DNA from: Streptomyces halobius
GTDB lineage: Bacteria; Actinomycetota; Actinomycetes; Streptomycetales; Streptomycetaceae
Assembly (NCBI RefSeq): GCF_023277745.1
Contig: NZ_CP086322.1
Span: 496,001 to 560,000, forward strand
Length of the DNA: 64,000 nucleotides
Direction: 5' to 3'
A model generated the notes under the pieces. That model was not told where the DNA came from and made no database searches. It saw only the letters and a program-made list of their open reading frames with translations. The position numbers and the translations under genes are program-made. Shown here one piece after another: positions 18,890 through 48,203 of this stretch. How positions within the stretch are numbered: position 1 is the first letter of the stretch; the number at the start of each line of letters is the position of its first letter.

Positions 18890-19011
18890 GCGCGCGGCTC
18901 TACCCGGAACGGCCCGGCCGGCACCGGTCCAGACGGGCAGAACACCCGATTGGCCGAGTACGCCGACCAGCGCGCCGGGAACCCGTAAGACGGACCTATA
19001 CGGAGCACAAG

Positions 19012-29130: not shown

Positions 29131-30150
29131 CTAGGAGCGGGCCCTGCCGTGGAATGTAAGCGTGCTTACATTTCTCCCGTCCTGCTCGGCCGTATCCGGT
29201 CCCGGCAGGTCCCGACAGCGGACGCGGCCGATTCCCGCCGCGAGGGTCAGCGGGACGGTGAGGACGGCGGCGAGCAGGAAGAGCCCCCGGTACGCTCGGT
29301 GTTCCGCCGCGTCCGCGGTGAAGCCGCTGGCCGGCGCACTGCCGACGTAGAGGGCCACACCGGACATGACGACCCCGGTGGCCCTGGCCGTCGGCGTCAG
29401 AGCGGTTGCCCATGACTGGATGGTGGAGTGCATGAACGACCAGCCGCCCCCCAGCAGCAGAGCGGTCGGTACCAGTGCCGGGACGGACAGGCTCACCTCG
29501 GCGGTCGTATAGGCGGCCGCCATTTGTATGCCGCCCACCAGGATGATCGTGGATGGCTGCCACCGGCCGACCAGACGCTTGACCACCTGAGCCGCCGTCA
29601 TGGAGCCGACCCCGTACAGGGCGGCCACCGCGCCGGCCAGGGTGGTCGGCCGGCACACCCCGGTCCTCCAGCGCGGGGGCCGGGTACGTCAGCAAGCCCG
29701 GCAACACGGCCCCTTCAAGGAGCGCCACGGCCATCACGTACCACTGCCACCGTGAGCGCATGACCACACGGATCGAGGCCAGCAGGGGGCCGGAAGGCTC
29801 CCGTTCCGGTTCGGGCAGCCGGCGCAGGGCCACCGTGAGGCAGGCGGCGAACAGTCCCGGCAGCGCGAAGACCAGGCGCCAGCTCACATAGTGCGCCAGA
29901 GCACCGGCCACCACGGTGGCCACCGCTGTACCCAGGGCGAACGCGGTCATCAGTCCGCTGAGCGGGCGCTGACGTATCTCAGCGGGCACGGTGTCGCCCA
30001 CGTACGTCAGCGAGGCCGCAATGAAGGCGGCGAAGCAGGCACCCGCTGCCCCACGGGCGACGATGAGCAACGTGGCGCCGGGGGCCAGCGCCGAGCAGAG
30101 CGCGGCGACCGCCGCCCCGGCGAGCGAGCATCGCATCACCCGGGCCCGGC
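29131..30150 (-). pseudogene. MFS transporter remnant, truncated and frameshifted
   Basis: Reading leftward from about 30150: RARVMRCSLAGAAVAALCSA, FAAFIAASLTYVGDTVPAEI, GTAVATVVAGALAHYVSWRL and WYVMAVALLEGAVLPGLLTY are MFS helices 2-7. Near 29663 the frame changes by one base and continues as TTLAGAVAALYGVGSM, LVGGIQMAAAYTTAEVSLSV and the remaining helices to a stop at 29131. Helix 1 and the start codon are missing, cut exactly where the opposite-strand MmyB fragment begins. The last codons overlap the palindrome at 29153-29172. Confidence 0.82.
29153..29172. promoter_or_regulatory. 20-bp palindrome with Crp/Fnr spacing
   Basis: AATGTAAGC-GT-GCTTACATT is a perfect 9-bp-arm palindrome. Its core is TGTAA-N6-TTACA, the same 5-6-5 geometry as the Crp site TGTGA-N6-TCACA. 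It is centred about 83 bases before the start of the membrane-protein/Crp-Fnr operon. It is the likely operator of the Crp/Fnr protein encoded there (inference from geometry and position). Confidence 0.72.
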
Positions 30151-30451
30151 ACGCGCTTTGCTGGGCCAGTTCCGCGCCAACGCCGCCCGCCATCCCGGCG
30201 ACCCGCGGTACGCCGAGATCATCGGCCAGATCGTGGGGGATCCGGACGCGGCCCGGTGGTACGAGCGGAGGGAGACAGCCGCCTACCGGCCCGCGGTGCG
30301 GCACTTCCGGCATCCGGCGGCCGGTGAACTGCGGCTGCGTTACGTCAAGTTGGCTGCCGTCGAGGAGCCTGGCCACCACTTCCTGGCCTATGTGCCGGAT
30401 GGCCGGGGGGGGGCCGAGGCCGCGGTCCACAGGCTCACGGAGGTGGCGTGA
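30146..30451 (+). pseudogene. 3' fragment of an XRE/MmyB-type regulator
   Basis: About 100 codons reading ARALLGQFRANAARHPGDPR, YAEIIGQIVGDPDAARWYER, VRHFRHPAAGELRLRYVKLA and VEEPGHHFLAYVPDG to TGA at 30449-30451. This is the C-terminal half of the MmyB-like ligand-binding domain found in many Streptomyces XRE regulators (LRxxAGRHPxDPRLxxL...W...V...F.HP..G.L.L.Y). The HTH and first half are absent. Upstream the DNA belongs to the oppositely oriented MFS remnant. A poly-G run (30406-30412) lies near the end. Confidence 0.8.
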
Positions 30452-30524: not shown

Positions 30525-33500
30525 CTACGTCGTGGCGCTCTCCCCCGGTGCCTGTGCCAAGCCCAGGCGGTCGTGGACCAGGCGGGCCACATCGGTCAGT
30601 CTGTGCCCGCCGGCGGTGAACTCCCCCGGTGCCACACGGATGTCGAACTGTTCGCGGGTGCCGACCAGGAACTCGGCGCCCATCAGAGAGTCGAGGCCGA
30701 TGTCTGTCAGCGGTCGCTGGGGGTCGATGTCGGACGGGTCGGTCTGCAGGACGCCGGCGAGGATGCGGCACAGCGCTTCGGTGATGGTGCGGATGGCGTC
30801 GTCCGGCGCCATCGTGGCGAGAGAACGCAGCAGTTCCTCGCGGGCGTCGTCGGCGTCCTCGGTGCCGGGAGGGACGAGGAGGTGGTAGCGGGGCGCCGCC
30901 AGGGCGGGCAGCAGACGGCGGGCGCGGGGCCAGCGGTAGCGGCCGACGCCGGCGACATCGGTGTCCGCGGCGAGTAGTTGGTCGGCGGTGCCGAAGATTT
31001 CGGCCGGGGTGACCGGTTCGAAGCCCAGGCCGGTCATGGCGGGGCCGAGGTTGTTGCGGGCGACGTAGCCGGTCTCGGCGATCGGGCCCCAGGCAATCGC
31101 GGTGCCGGGCAGTCCGGCGTGGCGGCGGGCGCGGGTCAGGGCTTCCAGGTAGGCGTTCCCGGCGACGTAGGGGGCCTGGGTCGGGTTGCCGGTGGTGGCG
31201 GTGACAGAGGAGTAGAGGAGGAACAGGTCGAGGTCGCGGTCTGCGGTGAGGCGGTGGAGGATGCCGGCGCCGGCCATCTTGGGGGCGAGGACGGCGGCGA
31301 AACGGGCGTCGTCGAGCTCGGCGAGGGGGGCATCGTCCAGCTGCATGGCGCAGTGGGCGACGCCGCGCAGGCGGTGCCCGCTGTCGTCGACGGCGGTGAG
31401 GACGCGGCGTACGGCCGTCTCGTCGGTGACGTCGGCCGCGTAGGCGGTGGCGCGGACGCCGCGTCGCCGCAGCCGGTCCAGTACTCCGGCGGCTTCCGGT
31501 GCTTCGGGCCCCCGGCGGCTGACCAGGGCGAGATGCCGGGCGCCGCAGTCGGCGAGCCAGTCGGCGGTGGCGGCGCCGAAGCCGCCGAGTCCGCCCGTGA
31601 CCAGGTAGGTGCCGTGCGGGTCCAGTGCGGGGGCGGTCGGGGCGGGCGCGACCGGGACGGATTCGTCCCGTGGGTCGAAGGAGATGACGACCTTGCCGGT
31701 GTGCTGGGAGTGCTGGAGGACCCGGAAGGCGTCGTCCACGCGCGCCGCGGGATAGACGGTGTGTGGCAGCGGCCGGTAGGTGCCGGAGGCGATCCGGCGG
31801 TGTACGTCCTGCTGAACGCGTGGGCCCCGCACCGGATCGTAGATGATCTTGTCGAGGTTGAAGCCGATGAAGGTGAGGTTGTGGTGGAACGGGCGTAGAA
31901 GGAGAGGGTTGTTGAGGAAGATGTCGCGCTTGCCGAGTTCGATGAAGCGGCCGTTGGGACGGAGGAGTTCCAGGCTCTGGGCGATGGCCTCGCCGCTGAG
32001 CGAGTTGACGACGATGTCGACGCCTCGGCCGTCGGTCAGTTCACGGATGCGCGGTGCGAAGTCCCGGGTGCGGGAGTCCAGTACGTGTTCGGCGCCCAGG
32101 GTGCGCAGCAGGTCACGTTTGAGGTCGGTGCCGGCGGTGGCGATCACATGGAGACCCAGGTTCCGGGCGCACTGGATCACGGCCTGGCCGACGGCGCCCG
32201 CGCCGCCGTGCACCAGGAGGGTCTCGCCGGGGAGCGGCTGGGCCTGGTGGGCGAGGGCGTGGTGGACGGTCAGGAAGGCCACGGAGAAGGTCGCCGCCTC
32301 GGCGTAGCTCATGTCGTCGGGAAGCGGCGTGACGGCGGCGGCGGAGGCGACGGTGTGCGAGGCCAGGGCGGCGCCCACCAGGCCGGAGACTCGTTCGCCG
32401 GGGGCGGGGGTGCTCACCCCGGGGCCGACCACGGTGACGATACCGGCTCCGTCGGTGCCCAGTCCCCGGCTCAGCGGACTGCCCTCGACGGCCTCCGGCG
32501 GCAGGAGCCCATTGGCGCGCATCGGATCCCGGTAGTTGAGTCCGCACGCCCGCAGCTCGACCTCGATCTCGCCCGGTCCCGGCTGCCGCCGCTCGGTCTG
32601 ACGCCATACGAGCCGTCGGGAGAACCCGGGGGTGTCCACGTCCAGGATGTAGGGGGAACCCTGGTCGGTGGCGGGGAGCCGGTCGGCCGGATGCTGCGTC
32701 TCCCGGGGGACGAAGCGGCCGGCCCGGGTGAGGACGATTTCGTCTTCGTCGCCGGGGGTGAGGAGTTCCCGCACGAGACGTCGCGCATCGGTGGCCGGAT
32801 CGTCGGCGCGGTCGAGGGAGACGCGGCGAATCCCCAGCTCTGGCTGCTCGTTGGTGAGGGTCCGGGCGGCGGCCCAGATGGCGGCGTCGGCCGGGTGCGC
32901 CGGTCGTTCGGGCACGGGGAAGAGGCCGCTGGGCCGGGTGATGAGCCACACGTGGGGTCGTACACCGTCCGGCAGGGCCCCGCAGGCGGCCACCAGGGCA
33001 CGGAGCGTGGCGGCACGTCGGGTGGTGCGGGTGACGATGGCGTCCGTACCGGCATGCGCGTCGTCGCCGCCGGGCTCGCCGGCACCGGCAGGCTCATCAT
33101 CACCGCTGGACTCGCCCGCACCGGCAGGCTCATCGTCACCGCCGGGCTCGCCGGCACCGCTCGGCGCGCCCGCACCCTCGCCCTCGGCGAGCAGCAGAAC
33201 GATGTGCGCGGAGCCCTCGGCCGGCAGCGCGGTGCTCCATGCGGCAGTGTCGCCGGAGGCGGTGACGACGACGGCATTGCCCGTCAGCCCGGCGAGTTCC
33301 TGTGCGAGCGGGGCCTCGGCGGGCGTCTCGGTGGCGATGACCCAGGACGTGTCGGCCGTACGCGGTGGGGCGGGCGGCGCAGCCGGAGGGCGTTCGGCGG
33401 TGGTCAGGAGGACGGAACGGTCCTCGGTGCCGTGCCGCACGGTGTGGGTGAAGCCGCATTCCGCCAGCAGCCGGGGCCAGCGGTCGTGCGGCAGCAGCCG

Positions 33501-36500
33501 GGTCTCCGGGCGCAGTTCGAGGTCACGGCGCTGCCAGAAGTCGTCCGTGGCCCCCCAGAGGAGGCCGAGCCGCGGTGCGTGGTGCGGTTCCACGGCGAGC
33601 AGCCGGCCGCCGGGAGCCAGGAGGGTGCGGAGGCCGCGCAGGGTGCTGGCCAGGTCGGTGGCGGTATGCAGGGCGTCGCCGGTGATGATGAGGTCGCAGC
33701 CGCCGTCGGGGAAGCCCTGGTCGAGCGGGTCGGCGTCCGGGTTGAGGGTCTGGTGCCGGACGAAGTCGTAGGCGGCGAAACGGCGTTCCGCGCGGGCGAA
33801 GGTCGCGGTGGAGGCGGCGGTGCGGGTATAGCGGGTGCGCTCGGGCGGCAGGAGGGGCAGCAGGGCGGCGGTCAGGGCGTGTGTTCCGGCGCCGAACTCC
33901 AGGATGCGCAGCGGACGGTCGGCCGGCCAGTGTCGGACCAGCTCGCTCAGCAGGGCGCGGGCGATGTGGTGGGTGAAGCGGTGAGCGGGTGCCGTGTCGT
34001 GGAGCTGCTCGACCATCGGGTCACCGGCCGGCACGAGTTCCGCCGCGTCCGCGTCGCCGCGCAGCACCTCGGGCAGGTGGCGCAACTGCCGGTTGAGGAG
34101 GACGGTTTCGGCACTGAAGGCCGGATGGCCGTCCACCAGGTCACGCAGTTTCGTGTGGGGTTGCGGCTCCGCAGCGGTCAGCCGCCACAGGGCGTCACCG
34201 GCCGGCTCGGCCAGGCCGTGGCGGATCACGAGCGGCAGCATCAGCCGGACCAGTCGCCGGTGCCCCGGCTGCAGTCCCCCGGCCATGAGTTCGGGCATGC
34301 CGAAGGCGGTCCGGGGGTCGGCGAGCAGTCCGGACAGGGCCTCGCCCCAGCAGTGCGCGCCCGCTTCCTCGACGGCCGCCGTGAACTGCTCGTAGCCGCT
34401 CTCCAGCAGGGTCGTACGGTGTGCGGCGATGCGGCCCTCGGCGGCGGCGGCGGCCAGTTCGGTGACCGGGGGCAGGGGCGAGGGGTCGGCGGGGGTGTCC
34501 GGGTGGGGAGCGGCGCGCAGAACGGTGCGCTGAACGGCCAGTGGGGTGTGGTCGACGGTGCGTGAACTGCGGGTGCGGCAGCCCTCGATCTCGGCGGTGA
34601 CGGTGCCGTCCTCGTCGGCGTAGGTGATGTCCCAGCAGAACTCGTTCTCGGTGCGGGCGCGTTGACGCAGATGCACGATGCCGTCCGGTGAGGGGGTGCG
34701 CCACACCCGTACGGAGCCGAATACGGACGGCAGATAGCCCTTGCCGCCGCCCATCCACTGTTCGACGAGTGCGACGGTGGCCTGGAGCGGTGCGTCCAAC
34801 AGCACCGGGTGGACGGTGTACGGCTCGCCGGGCTCCTCGTACCGATAGGAGGCCAGCAACTCTCCTTCTCCCACGTGCAGTTCGCGCAATAGCTGGAAGG
34901 CAGGCCCGACGCCCAGGCCGACCCGATGGCAGGTCCGGTAGTAGTCGGTGGCACTGATCGAGCGGGGGCACCGGGCGCGGATCGCCTCGGGGTCGAGAGG
35001 TGCGGGAGCGGAGCCGAGGAGCGAGCGGACCTGGGCGCGGACGACGGGCAGGCACTCGCTGCCGCGGCCCTGGTTGCTGCTGATGGTGAGGGTGCCGTCG
35101 TCCGGTGTGACGGCGGTCTGGAGCCGGACCAGGCCGGGGTCGGGCCAGTCCGGGAAGGGAAGCGGGCGGGAGATCTCCAGGTGCCGTACCTCCGCCGGCC
35201 GGTTCAGGGCTCGTCGGCCGGCGGACAGGGCCATCTCGACGTATCCGGTGGCGGGCATCAGCACCGTTCCGCCGATCCGGTGGTCGCCCAGCCAGGGCAC
35301 CAGTTGCGGTTCGACGGGACCTTCCCACAGCGGGTGCGGGGCGGGGAGGCGTTCACCCAGGAGCGGGTGGTCGAGCAGACCGGTGCCGCTGGTACGCAAG
35401 ACCAGGTCCTGCGGGGTGCCGTGCCAGTGGCGGACGCGCTGCCAGGGGTAGGCGGGCAGGTCCGTGACCCTTCCCGCGCGCGGGAAGTGGGTTAGCCAGT
35501 CCACGGCGGCACCCGCCGCGAGCAGGGCGGCTACCGCTGCGCTCAGGTCCCGGGCCCCGTCCCCGTCACGGCGGAGGGTGGGGATGTGCGTGGCCCTGGT
35601 GCGACGCAGGTAGGGGCGCAGCACCGGGTGCGGGCCGATTTCCAGGAGAATGTCGGCCTCCTCGGCGAGGACATGGCCGATGGCGGCGGCGAAGCGGACC
35701 GGCTCGCGGACGTTGCGCCACCAGTACGCGGCCGTCAGCTCCTCGCCGGACAGCGGGGCTCCGGTGACGGTGGAGACGAACGGGATGCGGGAGGGGCCGG
35801 GGTTCAGGTCGGCCAGCGCGGCATGCAAGGGGCCGGCGATCGGATCCATGGCGCGGGTGTGGAAGGCGTAGTCCAGGTCCAGTTCACGGAAGAAGGTGTC
35901 CCGGGCGGCCAGTTCGGCCCCGAGTGCGATGAGGGCGTCCGGGTCGCCGGCGACGGTGACGTCCTGGTCGCTGTTGATTCCGGCGATCTCCAGGGCGCCG
36001 TCGTAGCGGGCCAGTGCTTCCCGGGCCGCTTCCTCCGGCAGCCCGACCGCGGCCATCCGGCCGGTGCCCGCCGTCTGCCCCTGCGCACGGCTGCGCTCCG
36101 CGATCACCCGGGCCGCCTGCTCCAGCGTCAGTGCACCGGCGGCGTGGGCGGCGGCCACTTCGCCGACGCTGTGGCCGGCCACGGCGGACGGCCACAGGCC
36201 CCGGGCGGCGAGCAGTTCCGTCAGTCCCGCCTGGACGGCGAACAGGAGGGGCTGGGCGAACTCGGTGCGCTGCCAGCGCGCATCGGTGGGCCGGGCCAGC
36301 TCCTTCGCCACTGACCAGTCCAGATACGCGGCCAGGGCATGGTCGGCCGCTTCGACGGCTTCCCGGAAGACCGGTTCGCCGGTCAGCAGGTCGGCGGCCA
36401 TGCCGGGCCACTGCGAGGCGTTGCCGGAGAAGACGTACGCCACCGTGTCCCGGTCGGCCGCGCGTGTCATGGCCCCGGCCGCGGGCTCACCGGCGAAGAG

Positions 36501-38024
36501 CCGCTCCAGCTCCCCGGCCGCCGCGTCCGCGCTGTCGGCCAGGACCGCGGCGCGGTGTGGATGGGCGCTGCGGCGCCGGGTGGTGGTGTGCGACAGGTCG
36601 TGGAACTCGTCGGGGGCCGCTTCCCGCAGCCGCGTCGAGACCCGGGCGGCCAGTTCCCGCAAGGCGGTGGCCGAACGAGCGGAGATCATCACCGGCACCC
36701 GGCCCCCGCCGCCCTCTTCCCGTACGGGCGGAGCGGGCGGCCCGGTCAGCACGGCATGGGCGTTGGCGCCGCCGAAACCGAAGGAGTTGATGCCCACCGC
36801 GGCCCGGTCCCCGGCCGGCAGGGCGACGGGCTCGACGGTGGGCAGCAGTCCGAGTCCGTCGAAGTCGATGGCCGGGCTGAGCGGGTGGGCGTGCAGCGTC
36901 GCCGGGGCCTCGGCGTGCCGCAGTACCAGCAGCGCCTTGCACAGGCTGGGCATGCCGGCGGCCGGTTCCAGGTGTCCCAGGTTGGACTTGACCGAGCCGA
37001 TCGGCAGCGGCCCGACGGTACGCCGCCGGCCGAGCGCCCGTCCGATGGCGTTCGCCTCCGCCGGATCACCGGCCGGGGTGCCGGTGCCGTGCGCCTCGAA
37101 GTACACGAGATCGTCCGGCTCCACGCCCGCCCGCGCGCAGACGGCGCGCAGCAGCGCCTCCTGCACCGGGGAACTGGGCAGGGCCATGCCCTGGGTGCGG
37201 CCGTCGCAGTTGGTGCCGGTGCCGGCGATCACCCCGTGGATCCGGTCGCCGTCGGCCAGCGCGTCGGCCAGCCGCTTGAGGACGACGACGCCCCCGCCCT
37301 CGGCCCGTACGAAACCGTCGGCGTCGGCGGAGAACGCCGCACACCGTCCGCGCCGCGACAGCATCGCCGCGTGTGAGAAGCCCGCGAAACCGTAGGGGCT
37401 GGTCAGCACATTGACACCACCGACCAGCGCGGTGCGGCTGGTGCCGTCCAGCAGTGTCCGGCAGGCCCGGTCCAGGGCCACCAGGGCGGAGGAACAGGCG
37501 GTGTCGACCGACACGCTCGGTCCGCGCAGGTCGAAGACGTACGACAGGCGGTTGGCGGCGATCGACAGGGTGGCGCCGCTCATGGTGTAGGGGCTGGTGT
37601 GGTCGCCGAGGGTCGCCTGCAACTGACCGTAGGCCGGGTCGGAGATCCCGACGAAGACACAGGTGTCCGACCCGGCGAGCGACTCGGCGGGGATCCCGGC
37701 GTCGTCGATCGCCTCGACCGCCATTTCCAGCAGCAGCCGCTGCTGGGGGTCGATATGCGCGGCTTCCTTGGGCGAGATGCCGAAGTAGGCGGCGTCGAAG
37801 CCGGCCACGTCGTCGAGGAATCCCCCGGCAGCGGTGTAGCTGCGGCCGGGCCGGAGGGCCCCGGGGTCCACGAAGCGGGACTTGTCGAACCGGTCCGCGG
37901 GCATCTCGCCGACCGCGTCGCGCCGCTCCTTCAGGGCGGTCCACAGACCCGGCAGGTCGTCGATCCCTCCGGGCAGGCGACAGCCGGCGCCCACCACGGC
38001 CACGGCCTGATCGTCACGCCCCAT
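30525..38024 (-). CDS. Single-module highly reducing type I polyketide synthase
   Basis: 2,499 residues: KS (about 1-430; Cys176 in DTACSSALVAL, EAHGTGTPAGDP, KSNLGHLEPAAG), AT (about 535-860; Ser near 618 in AGHSVGEVAAAH; specificity motif YAFH), DH (about 880-1165; DHRIGGTVLMP, His near 914), C-methyltransferase-like region (about 1220-1530; EFGAGTHALT), pseudo-KR/linker (about 1550-1740), ER (about 1790-2105; VHGGAGAVGQAV near 1940), KR (about 2140-2320; LVTGGLGGFGAATADW, YSSVTATTGNPTQAPYVAGN) and ACP (about 2405-2485; IGLDSLMG, Ser near 2445). The full reductive loop implies saturated chains, probably made iteratively. No thioesterase is present. The methyltransferase SAM loop lacks the usual last glycine. 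GGAGG precedes ATG 38024. It is divergent from oleABCD, 145 bases apart. Confidence 0.93.
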   Translation of the reverse strand: MGRDDQAVAVVGAGCRLPGGIDDLPGLWTALKERRDAVGEMPADRFDKSRFVDPGALRPGRSYTAAGGFLDDVAGFDAAYFGISPKEAAHIDPQQRLLLEMAVEAIDDAGIPAESLAGSDTCVFVGISDPAYGQLQATLGDHTSPYTMSGATLSIAANRLSYVFDLRGPSVSVDTACSSALVALDRACRTLLDGTSRTALVGGVNVLTSPYGFAGFSHAAMLSRRGRCAAFSADADGFVRAEGGGVVVLKRLADALADGDRIHGVIAGTGTNCDGRTQGMALPSSPVQEALLRAVCARAGVEPDDLVYFEAHGTGTPAGDPAEANAIGRALGRRRTVGPLPIGSVKSNLGHLEPAAGMPSLCKALLVLRHAEAPATLHAHPLSPAIDFDGLGLLPTVEPVALPAGDRAAVGINSFGFGGANAHAVLTGPPAPPVREEGGGGRVPVMISARSATALRELAARVSTRLREAAPDEFHDLSHTTTRRRSAHPHRAAVLADSADAAAGELERLFAGEPAAGAMTRAADRDTVAYVFSGNASQWPGMAADLLTGEPVFREAVEAADHALAAYLDWSVAKELARPTDARWQRTEFAQPLLFAVQAGLTELLAARGLWPSAVAGHSVGEVAAAHAAGALTLEQAARVIAERSRAQGQTAGTGRMAAVGLPEEAAREALARYDGALEIAGINSDQDVTVAGDPDALIALGAELAARDTFFRELDLDYAFHTRAMDPIAGPLHAALADLNPGPSRIPFVSTVTGAPLSGEELTAAYWWRNVREPVRFAAAIGHVLAEEADILLEIGPHPVLRPYLRRTRATHIPTLRRDGDGARDLSAAVAALLAAGAAVDWLTHFPRAGRVTDLPAYPWQRVRHWHGTPQDLVLRTSGTGLLDHPLLGERLPAPHPLWEGPVEPQLVPWLGDHRIGGTVLMPATGYVEMALSAGRRALNRPAEVRHLEISRPLPFPDWPDPGLVRLQTAVTPDDGTLTISSNQGRGSECLPVVRAQVRSLLGSAPAPLDPEAIRARCPRSISATDYYRTCHRVGLGVGPAFQLLRELHVGEGELLASYRYEEPGEPYTVHPVLLDAPLQATVALVEQWMGGGKGYLPSVFGSVRVWRTPSPDGIVHLRQRARTENEFCWDITYADEDGTVTAEIEGCRTRSSRTVDHTPLAVQRTVLRAAPHPDTPADPSPLPPVTELAAAAAEGRIAAHRTTLLESGYEQFTAAVEEAGAHCWGEALSGLLADPRTAFGMPELMAGGLQPGHRRLVRLMLPLVIRHGLAEPAGDALWRLTAAEPQPHTKLRDLVDGHPAFSAETVLLNRQLRHLPEVLRGDADAAELVPAGDPMVEQLHDTAPAHRFTHHIARALLSELVRHWPADRPLRILEFGAGTHALTAALLPLLPPERTRYTRTAASTATFARAERRFAAYDFVRHQTLNPDADPLDQGFPDGGCDLIITGDALHTATDLASTLRGLRTLLAPGGRLLAVEPHHAPRLGLLWGATDDFWQRRDLELRPETRLLPHDRWPRLLAECGFTHTVRHGTEDRSVLLTTAERPPAAPPAPPRTADTSWVIATETPAEAPLAQELAGLTGNAVVVTASGDTAAWSTALPAEGSAHIVLLLAEGEGAGAPSGAGEPGGDDEPAGAGESSGDDEPAGAGEPGGDDAHAGTDAIVTRTTRRAATLRALVAACGALPDGVRPHVWLITRPSGLFPVPERPAHPADAAIWAAARTLTNEQPELGIRRVSLDRADDPATDARRLVRELLTPGDEDEIVLTRAGRFVPRETQHPADRLPATDQGSPYILDVDTPGFSRRLVWRQTERRQPGPGEIEVELRACGLNYRDPMRANGLLPPEAVEGSPLSRGLGTDGAGIVTVVGPGVSTPAPGERVSGLVGAALASHTVASAAAVTPLPDDMSYAEAATFSVAFLTVHHALAHQAQPLPGETLLVHGGAGAVGQAVIQCARNLGLHVIATAGTDLKRDLLRTLGAEHVLDSRTRDFAPRIRELTDGRGVDIVVNSLSGEAIAQSLELLRPNGRFIELGKRDIFLNNPLLLRPFHHNLTFIGFNLDKIIYDPVRGPRVQQDVHRRIASGTYRPLPHTVYPAARVDDAFRVLQHSQHTGKVVISFDPRDESVPVAPAPTAPALDPHGTYLVTGGLGGFGAATADWLADCGARHLALVSRRGPEAPEAAGVLDRLRRRGVRATAYAADVTDETAVRRVLTAVDDSGHRLRGVAHCAMQLDDAPLAELDDARFAAVLAPKMAGAGILHRLTADRDLDLFLLYSSVTATTGNPTQAPYVAGNAYLEALTRARRHAGLPGTAIAWGPIAETGYVARNNLGPAMTGLGFEPVTPAEIFGTADQLLAADTDVAGVGRYRWPRARRLLPALAAPRYHLLVPPGTEDADDAREELLRSLATMAPDDAIRTITEALCRILAGVLQTDPSDIDPQRPLTDIGLDSLMGAEFLVGTREQFDIRVAPGEFTAGGHRLTDVARLVHDRLGLAQAPGESATT
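33061..33168. repeat. 36-bp minisatellite inside the PKS gene
   Basis: Three 36-bp units (33061-33096, 33097-33132, 33133-33168) encode 12-residue Gly/Ala/Glu/Asp/Pro-rich repeats of GAGEPGGDDEPA type, around residue 1640 of the PKS in the pseudo-KR/linker. The unit is a multiple of three, so copy number may vary without frameshift. The protein segment is acidic and probably disordered. Confidence 0.85.
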
Positions 38025-38169
38025 CCGTGCCTCCGTTCCGCCGCGCACGGCTGTCCCGCGGTTCCTTTTTGAGGGGGCTACCCAACTCGGCGCCGACCGC
38101 AGCCGGTTTTGACCAGATCGAATGAATTAACCTCTATGGCAGGTGAGTTGATGTTTTGTCTGCTTTAGA
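38025..38169. promoter_or_regulatory. Divergent promoter region between PKS and oleA
   Basis: A 145-base spacer, markedly AT-richer than the genes. On the plus strand TTGACC (38109-38114) and TCTATG (38133-38138), 18 bases apart, resemble a sigma-70-type promoter. It would start transcription near 38145, leaving a very short leader before the oleA GTG. The PKS promoter must lie on the other strand in the same spacer, so coordinated control is likely. No clear operator palindrome was found. Confidence 0.5.
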
Positions 38170-39204
38170 GTGCCCCTTGTGTTCGACAGCCCGCGTGCCC
38201 GTCTGTCCGCAATCGCCGTCCACCTGCCGTCCCGCTACCGGACCATGGAAGAGACCCGGGCAAGGATCGCGGCGTCCGGTGGCGCGTACGCTCCGCCTCC
38301 CGGCCTGCTGGAGTACGTCACCGGAGTACGCGGCGTCCACGTGCGGGACGAGGGTGTGCAGGCTTCCGACCTCGCGGTGGCGGCCGCCGTCAAGACGCTG
38401 TGCTCCGCCGGGGCGGATATCGGCGAGGTGGATCTGCTGCTGTTCGCCGCCACCGCGCAGGACCTCATCGAACCGGCCACCGCGCACATCGTGGCCGCCA
38501 AACTCGGCGCCTCCTGCCCCGTATTCGACGTCAAGAACGCCTGCAACAGCGTGCTCAACGCCGTCGAGGTGGCCTGCTCCTTCATCGCGGTCGGCCGGTA
38601 CCGGACGGTGCTGATCGCCTGCGGTGAGAGCGCCACCGACGCCACCCGCTGGCGCGTACCCGACCACGAGGCCCTGCTGCGGGCCATGCCCGGATACACC
38701 GTCTCCGATGCCGGCGCGGCCCTCCTGCTGACCGCGGGCCCCGCCGGGGACGGCGACCCGGGAGTGCTGACCCTGTCCTTCAGTGCCGAATCCGCGGCCT
38801 GGGAAGCCTGTGTCGTGGCGGGCGGCGGTTCCCTGCGCGGCCGGTCGAACGACGACGAGTGCACGTCCCTGCAGCTCAGCGGAGACCTCCTGAGCACCGC
38901 ACTCGACAACCTGCCGTCGCACCTGGAACCCGCCCACCGGGAACTGCGGGCGATCCGCGAGAGCGCGTTCATCGCCTTCCACCAGATCACGCTGCAGCAG
39001 TTCCACGACACCTCGGGCAAGCTCCGGCTGCCCGTGAGCCGCTGCATCGCCACCGTGGCCGAGCACGGCAACTGCGCGTCCGCTTCCCTGCCCCTGCAAC
39101 TGGTCGAGGCCCAGCAGACCCACCGGGTGGAGCCGGGCGACACGGTGGGGCTGATCGGACTGGCCAGCGGTACCAGCGTGGGCCTCGCCCTCATCAGGCT
39201 GTGA
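38170..39204 (+). CDS. oleA: OleA: acyl-thioester head-to-head Claisen condensation thiolase
   Basis: 344 residues, thiolase fold. OleA joins two acyl thioesters to a 2-alkyl-3-ketoacid. Its hallmark residues are present: catalytic Glu101 in QDLIEPATA (aligned with the OleA-specific Glu of Xanthomonas), nucleophile Cys125 in DVKNACNSVLN, His271 in FIAFHQITLQQF and Asn301 in EHGNCASASLP. The Cys-His-Asn spacing matches OleA and FabH-like enzymes. The OleA glutamate and the downstream oleBCD genes argue against FabH. The GTG start lacks a good ribosome binding site (GTG 38179 is an alternative); a leaderless transcript is possible. First gene of the ole operon, 7 bases before oleB. Its substrate is inferred to be the acyl chain of the adjacent PKS. 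Confidence 0.88.
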   Translation: MPLVFDSPRARLSAIAVHLPSRYRTMEETRARIAASGGAYAPPPGLLEYVTGVRGVHVRDEGVQASDLAVAAAVKTLCSAGADIGEVDLLLFAATAQDLIEPATAHIVAAKLGASCPVFDVKNACNSVLNAVEVACSFIAVGRYRTVLIACGESATDATRWRVPDHEALLRAMPGYTVSDAGAALLLTAGPAGDGDPGVLTLSFSAESAAWEACVVAGGGSLRGRSNDDECTSLQLSGDLLSTALDNLPSHLEPAHRELRAIRESAFIAFHQITLQQFHDTSGKLRLPVSRCIATVAEHGNCASASLPLQLVEAQQTHRVEPGDTVGLIGLASGTSVGLALIRL

Positions 39205-39211
39205 GCGCGCC

Positions 39212-40156
39212 ATGAACGCGATCACGGCACCCCCGGGAACCCTGCCACCACCCGTCATCCCGCCCGGCGCGCTGCCCGGCTATCCCGGCCCGGCCCATTG
39301 GCACCGCGTCCCCGCCACCGGCCAGCACTACCTCGACACCGGCTCGGGCGACCCCGTCCTGCTCCTGCACGGCAACCCTTCGTGGAGCTACACCTGGCGG
39401 CATCTGCTGCCCGCCCTGTCACCGCATGTCCGGTGCCTGGCCCCGGACCTCCCGGGCATGGGCCTGTCCCCCCGCCCTCCGGTGCCCCCCGGCCTCACCG
39501 ACCGCTACGAAGGTCAACTCGACGCCCTGGAAGCTTTCTTCGGCCATCTCACCGACGAACGACGACTGCCCGGCCAGGGGTGGACCCTGGTGATGCACGA
39601 CTGGGGCGGGCCGCTCGGCTTCGCCTGGGCACTGCGCAATCCGGGCGCGGTGACCCGGCTGGTCGTCCTCAACACCATCGCCTTCCGCTGGCCGCCGGGC
39701 TACCGTCTGCCCCTCCCCCTGAGGTGCATCAGGGACTCCGCCCCCATCGCCGCCCTCACCCACCTCACCAACGCCTTCGCCCGCACCGCCGTACGCGCCG
39801 GGGTCGTCCGTCCGCTGCCCGCCGCGGAACGGCGGGCGTATCTGCGGCCGTACGCCCGGCTCCGGGACCGGAGGGCCGTTGTCGCGTTCGTCCGCAGCAT
39901 TCCGCGTCACGACGACGAGCCGTCGTGGCGGTTGCTCGAACCCCCGGACGGCGGCAGCGGCCTGGCCGGACTGCCGGTGTTCGTCGGCTGGGGAATGCGG
40001 GATCCGGTCTTCACCCCGCTCGTACTGGACGCATGGACGGACCGTTTCCCGCAGGCCCGCGTCCACCAGTACGCCGACGCCGGTCACTACGTGATGGAGG
40101 ACGCCGCCGAGGAACTCGGGGGCCACATCCGCGACTTCCTCCGGGAGACGGCATGA
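39212..40156 (+). CDS. oleB: OleB: beta-lactone decarboxylase (haloalkane dehalogenase-like alpha/beta hydrolase)
   Basis: 314 residues. OleB removes CO2 from the beta-lactone made by OleC to give a cis-olefin. It shows the haloalkane-dehalogenase subgroup features: LLHGNPSWSYTWRHLLP (oxyanion turn, residues 52-68), nucleophile Asp130 with neighbouring Trp131 in VMHDWGGPLGFAWA, an acid in GWGMRDPVF (Asp264) and base His292 in DAGHYVMEDA. A lid domain covers about 155-240. It lies in the ole operon; its stop overlaps the oleC start (ATGA). Its presence suggests the pathway goes past the beta-lactone to a hydrocarbon, unlike lipstatin-type clusters that keep the lactone. A generic hydrolase role cannot be excluded from sequence alone. 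Confidence 0.87.
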   Translation: MNAITAPPGTLPPPVIPPGALPGYPGPAHWHRVPATGQHYLDTGSGDPVLLLHGNPSWSYTWRHLLPALSPHVRCLAPDLPGMGLSPRPPVPPGLTDRYEGQLDALEAFFGHLTDERRLPGQGWTLVMHDWGGPLGFAWALRNPGAVTRLVVLNTIAFRWPPGYRLPLPLRCIRDSAPIAALTHLTNAFARTAVRAGVVRPLPAAERRAYLRPYARLRDRRAVVAFVRSIPRHDDEPSWRLLEPPDGGSGLAGLPVFVGWGMRDPVFTPLVLDAWTDRFPQARVHQYADAGHYVMEDAAEELGGHIRDFLRETA

Positions 40157-41766
40157 CGACCAGCGGAGCCGGCCTCTACGCACAGGTGGCGGAGCTCGCC
40201 CGGTCCCGTCCCGACGCCACGGCGCTGGTCCCCGGCCGCCGGAACGGTTCCGGGCAGTCCATCAGCTACGCCCGCCTGTCCGCGGGCTGCCATGCCGTGG
40301 CCGAGGCGCTCCGGGCCGCCGGGGTCCGCCGCGGCCACAAGGCGGTGACGATGACCCGGGGCCCGTACGAACTAGTGGCCGTGGCCTACGGGTTGCTCGC
40401 CATCGGCGCCGTCCCGGTGCTGCTGGAACCGGGCATGCCCGGCGCCCGGCTCCGGGCCTGCCTGGACGACGTGGCCCCTGAGGTGTTCGTCGGTGAGCCC
40501 CTGGCCCATATGGGGCTCCGGGCGCTGCGCTGGGCACCCGGCCATGTCCGTACGCCCTTGGTGACCCGCCGCGCCCTCCTGCCGGGGCTGGGGCGGCGGT
40601 TGCCGGTGGCGGTGCCGGACGTCGGGGGCCCGGCGCTGGAGGCTCCGGAACCGGACCCGGAGGATTTGGCGATCATCGCGTTCACTTCGGGCTCCACAGG
40701 AGTGCCCAAGGGCGCGGAGTACCGGTGCGGCACACTGGCCGGGCAGGTCGACGCCCTCCGACCGGTCCTGGCCCCGGACCCGGGCGGGGTGCTGCTCTCC
40801 GGCTTCCTGCCCATCGCCCTGCTCGGCCCGGCCCTCGGGCTGACCACACTCTGCCCGGCCGTCAACCACCTCGCCCCGGCCCGCACACCTCCCGAACGCG
40901 TCCTGCGCCCCCTGCTGGCACACCGCGCGTCGGTGGTCGCCGCCTCCCCCGCCGTACTCGGCCTGCTGGCCGGCCACTGCGCGCACCACGGGCTCACCCT
41001 GCCCTCCGTCGACCGGGTGCTGGCTTTCGGCGCCCCGCTCCGCGCCCGGCTGGCCGACACATTGCACTCGGTGCTCCGTCCGGACGCCCAGGTGTTGAGC
41101 GTCTACGGCGCCACCGAATGCCTGCCGGTCAGCGCCGTCACCACCAGGGAACTGCACGCCCTGCGGAACGACGCGGACATGCCGCACCGGGGAACATGCG
41201 TCGGCCGCGTGGTGCCCGGAGTCGAGGTGCGCGTCCTGGAGGCCGACGCCACAGGGGTGGGCGAGATCGCCGTCGCCGGCCGTAACGTCAGTCCCGCTTA
41301 TCACGCCCGCCCGCAGGCCACCGCCGACACCAAGATCGCCGCCGACTGCGGTCTGCTGCACCGCACCGGTGACCTGGGACGCCTCGACGACCAGGGACGC
41401 CTGTGGTTCCACGGCCGCACGTCGCAACGCGTCATCGGCGCCGCCTGCGTCCTGAACACGGAGGACATCGAAACAGCGGCGGACACGGCACCGGGCGTAC
41501 GACGCAGCGCCCTGGTCGGCGTCGGCCCGGCCGGGCAGCAGCGAGCCGTGCTCTGCGCGGAACTGGACGGTACCGCCCACCGCGGCCGGGACCGCCGCAC
41601 CGCTCGGGCCGCCCTCCGCGAGGTCCTCGACCGCCACCCGCAGGGCCACCACATCGGCTCCGTCCTCATCCACCCGCGCTTTCCCACCGACATCCGCCAC
41701 AACTCCAAGATCGATCGCGAACGGCTGGCCGCCTGGGCCGCGAAGCGCGTAAGGGAGACCACATGA
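40153..41766 (+). CDS. oleC: OleC: AMP-dependent beta-lactone synthetase
   Basis: 537 residues, ANL superfamily. OleC adenylates the 2-alkyl-3-hydroxyacid made by OleD, then closes the beta-lactone. Motifs: P-loop AFTSGSTGVPKGAEYR (178-187 core), the OleC-type core VYGATECLPVSAVT (318-325 core) and the aspartate motif LLHRTGDLGRLD. C-terminal VLIHPRFPTDIRHNSKIDRE contains the conserved lysine. GATECLP in place of the usual YGxTE of CoA ligases separates OleC from fatty acyl-CoA synthetases. The ATG at 40153 overlaps the oleB stop, and the stop overlaps the oleD start, both by ATGA. Strong translational coupling fits an OleBCD complex. Confidence 0.92.
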   Translation: MTTSGAGLYAQVAELARSRPDATALVPGRRNGSGQSISYARLSAGCHAVAEALRAAGVRRGHKAVTMTRGPYELVAVAYGLLAIGAVPVLLEPGMPGARLRACLDDVAPEVFVGEPLAHMGLRALRWAPGHVRTPLVTRRALLPGLGRRLPVAVPDVGGPALEAPEPDPEDLAIIAFTSGSTGVPKGAEYRCGTLAGQVDALRPVLAPDPGGVLLSGFLPIALLGPALGLTTLCPAVNHLAPARTPPERVLRPLLAHRASVVAASPAVLGLLAGHCAHHGLTLPSVDRVLAFGAPLRARLADTLHSVLRPDAQVLSVYGATECLPVSAVTTRELHALRNDADMPHRGTCVGRVVPGVEVRVLEADATGVGEIAVAGRNVSPAYHARPQATADTKIAADCGLLHRTGDLGRLDDQGRLWFHGRTSQRVIGAACVLNTEDIETAADTAPGVRRSALVGVGPAGQQRAVLCAELDGTAHRGRDRRTARAALREVLDRHPQGHHIGSVLIHPRFPTDIRHNSKIDRERLAAWAAKRVRETT

Positions 41767-42800
41767 CCGGCCCCGCCCGGGTCCTCGTCACCGGAGGCAG
41801 CGGCTTCCTCGGCACCGAGATCTGCCGCCGGCTCATCGCCCGCGGAACCCGGACCCAGTCCCTCAGCCGTCGCCCCAGCGCCACGTTGGCCCGCCTCGGC
41901 GTCCACCAGCACCAAGGCGACCTCGTCGACCCCACCGCCGTGTCCCGGGCCGTCGCCGGCTGCGACGCCGTCATCCACACCGCGGCTCTCGCCGGCGTCA
42001 GCGGGCCGATGCGCCCGTACTGGATGACCAACGTCCACGGCACCCGCAACCTCCTCAAACAGTGCCGCGCACACGCCGTACGCACCCTCGTCCACACCTC
42101 CACCGCCAGCGTCGTCTTCCCCCCTGGCGGGCTGCGGAACGCCGACGAACGCATCCCCTACCCCGAGCGCCACCTGGCCGCCTACCCCTGGACCAAGGCA
42201 CGCGCCGAACAACTCGTGCTGGCCGCCAACCGCCCCGCCCTGGCCACCTGCTCCCTGCGCCCGCACATCATCTGGGGCCCCGGCGACCCCCACTTCCTGC
42301 CGGCCCTGCTGCGCGCGGTCCGCGGCCGCCGCCTGTTCATGCCCGGGGACGGCACCAACCTCGTCGACACCACCCACCTGCGCACCGCCGCCCACGCCCA
42401 CCTGCTCGCCCTGGACCTCCTCCACCAACGCCAACCCGTCGACGGCCGCGCCTACTTCATCACCCAGGACGATCCCCGTCCGCTGCGCATCATCGCCACG
42501 CTCTTCCTGGCGAGCACCGGGATCCGCGCCGAGTGGTGCTCCGTGCCCACGCGGCTGGCGCACGCGGCGGCCACGGTCCGCGACACGGCCGCGCACCTCG
42601 CCCGCACCACCGGCACGCGGGAACTGAGCCGCTTCCTGGTGGCCGAACTCGTCCAACCGCACTGGTTCGACATCTCCGCGGCCAAGCGGTGCCTCGGGTT
42701 CGTACCGCCGGTCGGCTTCTCGGAAGGAATCGCGGAGATGGCCGCGATGGAGCCGACCAGGGCGAAGTCGGCCAGGACGAGGGGGCGCCCGGCGCGATAG
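41763..42800 (+). CDS. oleD: OleD: NADPH-dependent 2-alkyl-3-ketoacid reductase
   Basis: 345 residues, extended short-chain dehydrogenase (3-beta-HSD/epimerase type). Rossmann motif LVTGGSGFLGTEICRR (10-17 core), NVHGTRNLL, and the active-site YPWTK (Tyr141, Lys145) with the preceding HTSTASVVF. OleD reduces the OleA product to the 2-alkyl-3-hydroxyacid used by OleC. The C-terminal half (about 200-340) is hydrophobic and substrate-binding, with FITQDDPRPLRIIATLFLAS. Last gene of the ole operon, overlapping oleC by ATGA and followed by a hairpin terminator. Not to be confused with the oleandomycin glycosyltransferase also called OleD. Confidence 0.9.
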   Translation: MTGPARVLVTGGSGFLGTEICRRLIARGTRTQSLSRRPSATLARLGVHQHQGDLVDPTAVSRAVAGCDAVIHTAALAGVSGPMRPYWMTNVHGTRNLLKQCRAHAVRTLVHTSTASVVFPPGGLRNADERIPYPERHLAAYPWTKARAEQLVLAANRPALATCSLRPHIIWGPGDPHFLPALLRAVRGRRLFMPGDGTNLVDTTHLRTAAHAHLLALDLLHQRQPVDGRAYFITQDDPRPLRIIATLFLASTGIRAEWCSVPTRLAHAAATVRDTAAHLARTTGTRELSRFLVAELVQPHWFDISAAKRCLGFVPPVGFSEGIAEMAAMEPTRAKSARTRGRPAR

Positions 42801-43157
42801 GCGGGCGGCCCTCGCGTGCGGCGCGCCTGAACTGCGGGGCGCTCTGCCCACGCTGGCCGGGGGCGTGGGCAGAACTCATGGACGCGGACCATGGTCAGGT
42901 AACGCGGCGTGGTAACCCCTCAGTCCGGGCGAGGTCTTGTGCCTGCCTCTCACCCTTGCCACGAACGGGAGAGGGCCGGATCGACAGCTCCCCGGAACTC
43001 TTGAGAATTTTCCGGACCGCGGCAGTGGGGCCGCCGCCTCCGCGCCTTTCCTACGGCCCAAGTCCGCACCGGTGCCCACCGAAACGAGCCCGGGTCGCAC
43101 CGGTGCGGTGTCGCGTAACCGGGCCCACTGCGCGGGCCCAGTGCCACGTCCCCGCCG
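42801..43157. other. Convergent intergenic region after the ole operon
   Basis: 357 bases between the ends of oleD and the P450 gene, containing the ole terminator (42843-42873). Two copies of the palindrome GCACCGGTGC occur near 43065-43110, and a GGGCCC-rich stem near 43130 may terminate the P450 transcript. No gene is seen. Confidence 0.5.
42843..42873 (+). terminator. Hairpin terminator of the ole operon
   Basis: TCTGCCCACGC (42843-42853) pairs with GCGTGGGCAGA (42863-42873) across a 9-base loop, 43 bases past the oleD stop. There is no T tract, as usual in this GC range. Confidence 0.75.
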
Positions 43158-44447
43158 CTACCGCAACCGCACCGGCAGGGACGCCAGCCGCCAGCTCCCG
43201 GGCAGGGGGACGCGCTCCAGAGCGTCCGGTTCCACGGCCAGTGATATGCCGGGGTAGTGCGAGAGCAGCCGGCCGAAGGCGACTTCGCCCTCCTGTCGCG
43301 CGAGCGTGGCGCCCAGGCAGTAGTGCATGCCATGGCCGAAGCCCACGTGGTTCTCGGCCTGGCCCACAGGGTGGCGGGTCACATCGAGGCGGTCGGGGTC
43401 GGAGTAGTGGCGGGGATCGAAGTTCGCCGAGACCAGGACCAGTTGCACCGCCTCGCCCTTGCTGATGCGGGTGCCGGCGAGGTCGATGTCCTCGGAGGCG
43501 TAGCGCAGCTGGGTCGCGTGCACCGGTCCGCACCAGCGCATCAGCTCATGGACGGCGCGCGGGAGAATCCCCGGGTCCGTCGTGACCAACCGCTGCTGGT
43601 CGGGGTGGGTGAGCAGAGCGGCCGTGCCATTGGCGATGAGGTGGGCGGTGGTCTCGTGGCCGGCCAGGACCAGGGTGAGGATCATGGTGACCATCTCGAC
43701 GTCGCTGAGCCGGCTGCCGTCGTCGTCATGCGTACGGACGAGCTCGCTGAGCAGGTCGTCGGTCAGCGCCTGGCGGCGTTCGCGGACCAGTTCGTGGATG
43801 TGGTCGATCATCGCCGGGAAGGTCCTGGCGAGCGCCTCCGGCTCCAGCGAGATGAGGTCGGCGCCCCATGCCCGCCACTGCGGGCGGTCCGCCTCAGGGA
43901 TGCCGACGAGCTCGCAGATGACCGTGATGGGCAGGGGATAGGCGAAGTGCTCGATGAGGTCGACGACGCCGTCCTCGGCATGCTCGGGCAGCCGGGCCAG
44001 CAGCTCGTCGGCGATCTGCTCGACCCGTGGGCGCAGGCCGGTGATCTTGCGTGCCGTGAAGGCCCGCGACACCAGACGGCGGAGCCGGGTGTGGTCAGGA
44101 GCGTCGCAGTTGAGTATCGAGCCCTCCATGTAGACGCGGAGGTGCTCGGGGATGCCCAACACCTCCACCATCCGCGACAGGGGGTCATCGCCCGGCTCGG
44201 TCCCGGCCACGGCCGGGTTGTTCGCGAACCGCTGGTCGCGCAGGACCTCGCGGACTTCCTCGAAGCGCGTCACGAACCATACGGGCGAGTCGTCGATGAA
44301 CCGGCCGCGGACGACGGGGCCCTGCTCGCGCAGCTTGCCGTAGCCGCTGAACGGGTCGTTCACCAGCTCGGGGTCCATGACGTTCGGCTCGCCCGGGTGC
44401 TTGCCGACGTGTGCGGCGAGCGGGGAGACAGCGGGTGCTTCGGACAT
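43158..44447 (-). CDS. Cytochrome P450 monooxygenase
   Basis: 429 residues, soluble bacterial class I P450 (CYP105/107-like size). Oxygen-binding I-helix motif LVLAGHETTAHLIANG, the ExxR motif in HELMRW, and the haem ligand in FGHGMHYCLGATLAR (Cys near 376). The N-terminal MSEAPAVSPLAAHVGKHPGE is hydrophilic, without a membrane anchor. GGAGGAG sits before ATG 44447. It lies 28 bases downstream of a tetR on the same strand, so the pair forms an operon. No ferredoxin or reductase gene is adjacent; redox partners must come from elsewhere. Its position next to oleABCD suggests oxidation of the hydrocarbon or lactone product (inference); independent xenobiotic metabolism is the alternative. Confidence 0.93.
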   Translation of the reverse strand: MSEAPAVSPLAAHVGKHPGEPNVMDPELVNDPFSGYGKLREQGPVVRGRFIDDSPVWFVTRFEEVREVLRDQRFANNPAVAGTEPGDDPLSRMVEVLGIPEHLRVYMEGSILNCDAPDHTRLRRLVSRAFTARKITGLRPRVEQIADELLARLPEHAEDGVVDLIEHFAYPLPITVICELVGIPEADRPQWRAWGADLISLEPEALARTFPAMIDHIHELVRERRQALTDDLLSELVRTHDDDGSRLSDVEMVTMILTLVLAGHETTAHLIANGTAALLTHPDQQRLVTTDPGILPRAVHELMRWCGPVHATQLRYASEDIDLAGTRISKGEAVQLVLVSANFDPRHYSDPDRLDVTRHPVGQAENHVGFGHGMHYCLGATLARQEGEVAFGRLLSHYPGISLAVEPDALERVPLPGSWRLASLPVRLR

Positions 44448-44475
44448 CGTTCGTTCTCCTCCACGTGTGGGGGGG

Positions 44476-45210
44476 TCAGTGGCGCAATTGCCGGCGCATT
44501 TCCTGTGCGCTGAGTTCTTCCAGGTGCTCGTAGAGCGCGATGATCTCGGGTGCGGCGGCGGCAGCGGCAGCGACCGCGGCATCCGTGCTGGAGCCGTCAT
44601 CAGGGGAATCGGAGCCCGTGCGGGTTTCCAGCGCGCCGCGGACCGTGTGAGCGAGGATGTCGGCCCGTATCTCCGCAGGGCCCGGGGCACGGTCGAAGAG
44701 CAGTGCCTCGGCCATGAAGAAGCCGGTCGCCATCGCCATCAGGGCATAGCGCTGATGGCTGACGTCGCTGTCGGTGCGCACCAGGCCGTGCTCGCGCAGC
44801 ACTTCAAGATGACGCTGCAGGACGCGCTCGCCCTCCGCCATCAGCCCCGCGAGTTCCTTCTTGGCTATGTCATTGAGCCGGCCCAGCACGTCGGAGTCAT
44901 CGGTGTAGACGGCACGCAGGACCGGCTCCTCCAGGAAGTCGCGGTAGTGCCCGTGCATCATCCGGCTCGGCAGAATCTCCAGGGGGTCGGCGCGCATACG
45001 CTCCAGCTCACGCCGCTGGCTACGCGCCTTGTACGTGAGCAAAACCGCCAGCAGCAGGGCGTCCTTCGTCCGCCAGTGCAGGTAGACAGTGCCCTTCCCG
45101 ACCTTGGCACGGCGGGCTATCTCATCGATCGTCACCCGCCGGTAGCCCCACGCCAGCAGCAACTCCCCCGCTGCCGCCAGGATGCGCTGCCCACGCTCCG
45201 CGTGCTCCAC
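44476..45210 (-). CDS. TetR family regulator, probable repressor of the P450 operon
   Basis: 244 residues. HTH near 5-52: RILAAAGELLLAWGYRRVTI, DEIARRAKVGKGTVYLHWRT. The C-terminal part is helical with a run of eight alanines (about 217-227) and ends AQEMRRQLRH. GTG 45210 is chosen because GGGGGAG lies 5 bases upstream. A longer reading from ATG 45279 would place the operator palindromes inside the coding region. It is transcribed with the P450 gene 28 bases downstream. Two palindromes just upstream indicate autoregulation. Confidence 0.9.
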   Translation of the reverse strand: MEHAERGQRILAAAGELLLAWGYRRVTIDEIARRAKVGKGTVYLHWRTKDALLLAVLLTYKARSQRRELERMRADPLEILPSRMMHGHYRDFLEEPVLRAVYTDDSDVLGRLNDIAKKELAGLMAEGERVLQRHLEVLREHGLVRTDSDVSHQRYALMAMATGFFMAEALLFDRAPGPAEIRADILAHTVRGALETRTGSDSPDDGSSTDAAVAAAAAAAPEIIALYEHLEELSAQEMRRQLRH

Positions 45211-47984: not shown

Positions 47985-48203
47985 GAATGTTCCCCCTGAT
48001 GTTCCGTCGGTCGTTGGGCGGGTGCGGTCTCACACCCGCCCCACAGGATGCGCGGCCGGGCACCCGGAGACCAGGCTTTTCGGTACAGGCCGAATCCCAG
48101 GTCCGCCGGCTACGCGGCAACGGGACGGACGGAGCTTCCCTGGCGGCTTCGGCCAGTCGATTGTCAGTGGCCCGCGCTAGTGTCTGAAGCGGAGATCAAG
48201 AGC

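Follow-up and report, generated by a model that had tools for sequence, protein, structure and literature searches.

We analyzed a 64,000-nucleotide stretch of DNA, hereinafter the window, which corresponds to positions 496,001-560,000 of one 9.24-Mb contig of Streptomyces halobius and contains a gene for a type I polyketide synthase (PKS) positioned divergently to the four-gene operon oleABCD. The parts of this locus are as follows:

30525..38024, minus strand: type I PKS, probably iterative, with the order ketosynthase (KS)-acyltransferase (AT)-dehydratase (DH)-predicted pseudo-methyltransferase (MT)-enoylreductase (ER)-ketoreductase (KR)-acyl carrier protein (ACP) and no thioesterase; 2,499 aa (from Pfam domains, start context and motif tables)
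33189..34331, minus strand: PKS segment around the MT domain, which served as a query; S-adenosylmethionine (SAM) motif I reads GAGTHA (for GAGTGG) and TRTAAS stands in place of TxTDxS
38025..38169, no strand: divergent intergenic region of 145 bp between the PKS and oleA starts, presumed to hold two promoters
38170..39204, plus strand: oleA, head-to-head (non-decarboxylative) thiolase/ketoacyl-ACP synthase III (KAS III)-like enzyme; E101, C125, H271, N301; GTG start, the exact start being uncertain
39212..40156, plus strand: oleB, beta-lactone decarboxylase of the haloalkane-dehalogenase fold; HGNP, D130-W131, H292
40153..41766, plus strand: oleC, beta-lactone synthetase (AMP-binding), 537 aa; Pfam, NCBIfam, YGATECLP
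41763..42800, plus strand: oleD, 2-alkyl-3-oxoalkanoate reductase, 345 aa; Pfam, NCBIfam, GGSGFLG/YPWTK

When read from its first GTG, the PKS open reading frame (ORF) covers 30525-38048 on the minus strand. Because a GGAGG sits five bases upstream of an alternative ATG at 38024, we take this ATG as the likely start, which would give 2,499 aa and the 145-bp divergent gap to oleA described in an earlier, sequence-only reading of the locus. This gap lacks a sigma-70-type consensus site, the sole such site within 37900-43300 being at 42981-43008. The four ole genes form a single co-directional run on the plus strand, opposite to the PKS, with 7 bp between oleA and oleB and 4-bp ATGA overlaps at both the oleB/oleC and oleC/oleD junctions.

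Pfam recovers in the PKS the KS, AT, DH (PKS_DH_N and PS-DH), MT (PF08242), ER (ADH_zinc_N), KR and PP-binding domains, and no thioesterase family is present among the 18 Pfam families listed for it. The earlier description of a thioesterase-less synthase with a full reductive set is thus borne out, and its domain list needs amendment only in having overlooked the MT domain. In the window PKS, the KS retains its Cys-His-His and the DH its His and Asp, and motifs of the ER and KR are present as well. Among proteins of solved structure the best match is mycocerosic acid synthase (E 2e-278); the PfaA model TIGR02813 reaches 244.9 bits against a cut-off of 1010.1, placing the enzyme outside the PfaA type. 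The hallmark residues that had been named for the Ole proteins are likewise all in place: HGNP, Asp130-Trp131 and His292 in OleB, YGATECLP in OleC, GGSGFLG and YPWTK in OleD, and Glu101, Cys125, His271 and Asn301 in OleA. The OleA quartet is present in 35/35 sequences of at least 60% identity (the window and 34 loci, some genomes having been fetched twice, e.g. L132 = L053 and L135 = L044) as well as in 55/56 sequences of lower identity, the remaining one being gapped or misaligned there. The window OleA shows about 23-24% identity to Xanthomonas campestris OleA in a structural alignment, and a fold search favors OleA over FabH by about 2 Z.

The association between the PKS and oleA extends well beyond the window. 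In 392 sampled Streptomyces genomes, 18 (that of the window included) encode an OleA of at least 63% identity, and in 18/18 the PKS lies beside oleA, with an orthologous N-terminal part (72-100% identity) that reads away from oleA at a distance of at most 1.5 kb. No PKS orthologue lies within 1.5 kb of oleA at eight loci whose OleA is only 49-51% identical (L032-L039), three of which give only a KS match of 33-35%. When 293 genomes from across the order were sampled, 19 proved to have an OleA of at least 61% identity (8 of them already in the Streptomyces sample), and 18/19 have the PKS, in pieces in one genome (G511); the exception, G469, has an OleA of a sister clade. In a scan of a named genome collection we kept the best 80 of 220 confirmed stretches, each extending up to 10 kb on either side. 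The PKS was found at 26/28 of these loci with an OleA of at least 60% identity, the two exceptions (L061 and L069) belonging to the sister clade, and at 0/52 loci with a more distant OleA within the stretch fetched.

These observations are mirrored in the phylogeny. In a maximum-likelihood tree of 86 OleA sequences (omitting eight rows, L124, L127, L132 and L135-L139, which were duplicates, short loci or not the PKS-linked copy), all 28 PKS-linked OleAs, i.e. those of the 26 kept loci, the window and a plasmid record (L009), fall in one clade (support 99/92, 98% of bootstrap trees), and the PKS-less L061, L069 and L159 form its sister group. In the PKS tree, a branch with an SH-aLRT of 100 separates 23 ole-linked PKSs from 10 relatives without ole genes. 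The pairwise distances of PKS and OleA are also correlated (r = 0.849, n = 23, 0/2,000 permutations as high). The PKS-linked OleA clade is further distinguished by an Arg at position 30 (from Glu) in 28/28 members, as against 1/57 others, and by an Arg, mostly from Trp, at position 263 in 26/28 members, as against 3/57 others; as a speculation, this added positive charge could suit an interaction with an acidic ACP. The genome samples, the OleA clade and the distant loci together exclude chance adjacency, a doubt raised along with the original proposal. Hence, the synteny is real, conserved and more than coincidental.

The chemistry of the chain may be read in part from the AT and MT domains. 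We compared 33 PKSs, namely 23 full-length ole-linked versions and 10 relatives without ole genes (excluding L132, from the same genome as L053), the PKSs without OleA having been sought in 150 genomes with the MT-region piece as query. All 33 display the AT motifs GHSVGE and [YH]AFH, which we take to denote a malonyl-type AT. SAM motif I reads GAGTGG in 10/10 of the non-ole relatives and in the ole-linked L053, L062 and L076. It is altered in the other 20/23 ole-linked PKSs, including that of the window (GAGTHA), and these 20 constitute one group of the tree. In 14 of the 20, including the window PKS, the acidic residue of TxTDxS is missing as well (TRTAAS in the window). Strains in which the MT motif is intact include S. 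acidicola and S. bluensis. We accordingly predict that the window MT is an inactive pseudo-MT and that the synthase resembles the animal fatty acid synthase (FAS), its domain order with a dead MT being that of animal FAS minus the thioesterase. As the SAM motif is altered and the AT is of the malonyl type, the predicted chains are linear rather than methyl-branched, contrary to the branched chains suggested earlier; branching by way of a branched starter unit is possible. Two additional synthases of this type are encoded in the window genome, one around 217-225 kb and the other around 1,139-1,146 kb; each has GAGTGG and neither has an ole match in the 20 kb fetched, so such PKSs also operate where OleA does not accompany them.

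Several side observations pertain to these synthases. The two stretches of the window genome just mentioned (L149, 208,000-227,999; L150, 1,131,000-1,150,999) carry two close copies of another highly reducing PKS. Each includes an MMPL-type transporter, detected by Pfam in L149 and by blastp likeness in L150, and a P450 adjoins the L150 copy. MMPL-like genes are also found close to some PKSs elsewhere in the family (L153, L158), which is reminiscent of mycobacterial PKS-MmpL pairs. Streptomyces sp. ISL-11 (L071) has two highly reducing PKS genes of the ole-linked type (2339-9733 and 13960-21048; 71% and 68% blastp identity to the window PKS). In G257 (L128-L129) the PKS is read as two adjacent ORFs of 1,697 and 757 aa, and in G511 (L167) as separate pieces; gene fission, decay or sequencing error could account for this.

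The gene order around the PKS-OleA pair varies within the clade. In 18/28 members oleA is directly followed by oleBCD, either in full or to the extent that the contig reaches, whereas L063, L068 and L071 have oleC and oleB beyond the far side of the PKS, with 40-54% identity to the window lineage; oleD is also on that side in G240, the genome of L068. The same enzymes are thus kept in a rearranged layout, oleD-oleB | oleC at the 3' side of the PKS. Two further loci look rearranged likewise: L064 (G218), whose ole genes are on another contig starting with the PKS end, and L065 (G485), where some 3.5 kb separate oleC and the PKS. In L067 (G257) the oleD-B and oleC genes lie about 42 kb away from the PKS. 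No oleBCD was found in the stretch fetched for L044, L045, L053 and L066. A whole-genome search at E <= 1e-40, which covered the Streptomyces genomes G006 (L053), G418 (L044) and G566 (L163), all with PKS and OleA, found no OleC, although a very divergent one could escape it. S. netropsis is among the species without a detected OleC. The persistence of PKS and OleA in these three genomes indicates that they constitute the conserved core, in keeping with the functional pairing first proposed. The genes flanking the unit are not conserved between loci.

In L054 the window-type operon continues with genes for a stand-alone ACP and a FabF-like KS (Pfam), and KS-like or ACP-like genes occupy the same operon-end place in L051, L052, L056, L059 and L060. 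A stand-alone ACP and KS are also encoded at the sister loci L061 and L159 and at the outer locus L160, with an acyl-ACP-type desaturase (PF03405) near OleA in L061 and L159. Such genes suggest that this OleA lineage is tied to carrier-protein-bound chains. The sets at L061 (11221-13861) and L159 (13491-16133), which comprise the ACP, the FabF-like KS and the PF03405 desaturase, may be another, type II source of chains dedicated to OleA. Two other neighborhoods are recorded for completeness: in L133 (G218) oleB-like genes at 3968-4801 and 5775-6707 flank oleD beside the PKS end, and in L104 (Streptantibioticus parmotrematis; 3521-6457) a gene for an aldehyde dehydrogenase-P450 fusion, then one for an AMP-binding protein, lie upstream of oleABCD and a KS gene.

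Precedents for a synthase-fed OleA are available in the literature. An E. coli fadD mutant expressing Shewanella pealeana OleA together with pfaA-E yielded a 31:8 ketone, from which its authors deduce that OleA uses acyl-ACP in vivo; the ketone is said to arise by spontaneous decarboxylation when OleBCD is lacking, and Pfa synthase and OleABCD operons can be adjacent (PMC6463001). It had earlier been proposed that ole genes may also receive chains from further type I "secondary lipid synthases" (PMC3098273). The KAS III-like MxnB fuses two carrier-bound type I PKS chains, acting 12-fold faster on substrates bound to the carrier protein than on N-acetylcysteamine (NAC) ones (PMC5724707). The base-position Glu is shared by OleA and PpyS, MxnB and CorB having Val94 instead (PMC4578411). 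The earlier impression that the pairing had not been described survives in a narrower form: searches of open-licence PubMed Central papers turned up, judging by titles and abstract openings, no pairing of oleABCD with a PKS of the KS-AT-DH-MT-ER-KR-ACP type, but in principle the feeding of OleA by a Pfa synthase was already known (PMC6463001).

Building on the observed domains, residues, operon layout, synteny, the single clade in each tree and the altered MT motif, we consider it reasonably probable that the five genes constitute one unit in which a FAS-like PKS makes the chain, OleA releases it, and OleD, OleC and OleB convert the product to a long-chain olefin. Since the relatives keep the PKS and ole genes together, the PKS probably makes the chains that the ole pathway joins. 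By analogy with known enzymes, every chemical step, along with iteration, linear chain, ACP hand-over and product class, may be outlined thus. The PKS would iterate like animal FAS, using its malonyl-type AT and full KR-DH-ER reduction, and, with a pseudo-MT and no thioesterase, would leave a linear, mostly reduced acyl chain on its ACP. OleA would load this chain onto Cys125, and Glu101 of the partner subunit would take the alpha proton. The resulting carbanion could then attack a second acyl thioester, either another PKS chain or an acyl group of primary metabolism, to form a 2-alkyl-3-ketoacid, such that head-to-head condensation would substitute for the missing release domain. Ketone reduction by OleD, beta-lactone closure by OleC and loss of CO2 by OleB would finally furnish a long internal olefin. 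We propose the acyl-ACP hand-over because of the Pfa synthase/OleA precedent; the PKS-OleA core, the OleA-type Glu, and the sister loci encoding an ACP, KS and acyl-ACP-type desaturase are consistent with OleA as the likely release step, as the sequence-only reading had surmised. With confidence a little above even, we extend this to a self-contained Streptomyces hydrocarbon factory, wherein an MT-dead, thioesterase-less FAS-like synthase works with an OleA clade that lifts chains off the ACP, generating polyketide-derived long olefins, or ketones where OleBCD is missing, a product class not encountered in the papers searched.

Certain features weigh against this proposal. All four Ole proteins score under the NCBIfam cut-off of their best family, with no family above cut-off among the matches listed; OleC scores 417.7 bits with its second-best family NF045786 (olefin beta-lactone synthetase; cut-off 900) and OleD 319.7 bits with its best family NF042422 (cut-off 580). 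This lowers the case for their being the same equivalogs as the modelled proteins, and less so that for pathway membership. A profile of the PKS-linked-type OleAs ranks two FabHs (182 and 180 bits) above X. campestris OleA (166) and MxnB (112); similarity over the full sequence thus fails to distinguish OleA. The correlation of PKS and OleA distances would likewise follow if the neighbors were simply inherited together. Moreover, the S. orinoci/roseoverticillatus group is basal in the PKS-linked OleA clade but groups with the window group in the PKS tree; given this conflict at deep forks, possibly due to exchange between lineages or to error, strict co-inheritance is not shown. As for the synthase, the MT change is seen at the sequence level only, 6/20 altered versions retain the acidic residue of TxTDxS, and several orthologues (e.g. 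L009 and L044) have a DH motif HxxxGxxxxP without the Gly, making full reduction less than certain for every orthologue.

The high FabH scores also allow OleA to be read as a priming KAS III (FabH-like) that supplies a beta-ketoacyl starter to the PKS, with OleBCD acting on another substrate or on the released chain. The three genomes with PKS and OleA and no detectable OleC accord with this role as well; even so, we regard it as rather unlikely. Similarly improbable is an end product that accumulates at the level of OleC/OleD, namely a beta-lactone of the lipstatin/nocardiolactone kind or the like, owing to a weak or regulated OleB. According to PMC7064751, related actinobacterial ole sets without OleB yield beta-lactones, and no OleB match was found at 51/52 of the more distant OleA loci within the stretch fetched. 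At this locus, however, oleB sits in the operon, overlaps oleC and retains Asp130 and His292, and the 17 further loci with this layout encode OleB too, as does the rearranged layout. As OleB is intact, we favor the olefin over the beta-lactone, which had been given equal standing, and set aside the beta-lactone as sole product.

We consider it distinctly unlikely that the genes are neighbors by history only, with the PKS making a separate lipid and OleABCD drawing on primary fatty acyl-CoA. The two ole-less PKSs of the same type in the window genome and the broken gene pieces at 29131-30451, a rearranged cluster edge, would agree with such a history, but the pairing holds over the whole OleA clade and across two unlike oleBCD arrangements, and is kept while the flanking genes are not. 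Least probable, and very much so, is a PpyS/MxnB-like role, at least where PKS and OleA occur alone, in which OleA would form an alpha-pyrone by fusing a beta-keto chain to that of the PKS. While OleA and PpyS share the superfamily and the Glu (PMC4578411), most members have OleBCD, for which no role in pyrone formation is known, and the PKS retains its reductive motifs, with nothing pointing to a leftover beta-keto group. That the PKS and ole genes serve one pathway is most likely.

Turning to the surroundings of the unit, the left cluster edge (29131-30451) consists of broken pieces, including a major facilitator superfamily (MFS) transporter in two frames with its start missing, which abuts a fragment of an MmyB-like regulator ligand-binding domain; these fragments indicate that the edge was rearranged and suggest a recombination edge. 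A P450 at 43158-44690 was rejected as a member of the unit, as other loci give weak P450 matches only and the closest locus, L009, gives none. The product of the gene at 48048-49532 of the window contains a SUKH-4 immunity-protein domain (PF14435), which as a rule is associated with contact-dependent toxin systems. No nonribosomal peptide synthetase (NRPS) domain was detected among the flanking genes scanned with Pfam.

If our proposal is correct, the head-to-head olefin pathway gained its own chain factory at least twice, from a Pfa synthase in marine bacteria and from a FAS-like PKS in Streptomyces, and OleA can release chains from a type I megasynthase. Its five genes would then make the locus a compact means of producing defined long hydrocarbons. 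The natural variants, namely PKS and OleA alone, two OleBCD lineages, and MT intact or altered, make the use of acyl-ACP as against acyl-CoA by OleA testable.

Among known systems, mycocerosic acid synthase matches the window PKS in two stretches, the best of which (15-1161) stops before the MT region. Like other iterative reducing bacterial PKSs, it is thioesterase-less and iterative, and its chains are released by other enzymes, the PapA-type acyltransferases. The OleABCD systems of Xanthomonas, Shewanella and Micrococcus have the same four genes and hallmark residues as those described here; their usual substrates are acyl chains of primary metabolism, unlike those proposed for the window. 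The lipstatin and nocardiolactone oleACD clusters also encode OleA, OleC and OleD homologues in actinobacteria but are without oleB, which is present here with its catalytic residues. MxnB and CorB, like the proposed OleA, are stand-alone KAS III-like enzymes releasing type I PKS chains; they differ in having Val at the base position occupied here by Glu101, and no OleBCD is known to accompany them. In the Pfa synthase-OleABCD system of Shewanella, which makes hentriacontanonaene (31:9), a type I iterative synthase is linked to ole genes and OleA joins both pathways, as envisaged here. Pfa is a multi-protein polyunsaturated fatty acid synthase, whereas the Streptomyces PKS is a single polypeptide of the mycocerosic-acid-synthase/animal-FAS type with one ACP domain, encoded divergently from oleABCD and predicted to make reduced rather than polyunsaturated chains. 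The proposed PKS-fed oleABCD is a variant of the known synthase-fed OleABCD systems rather than a new kind.

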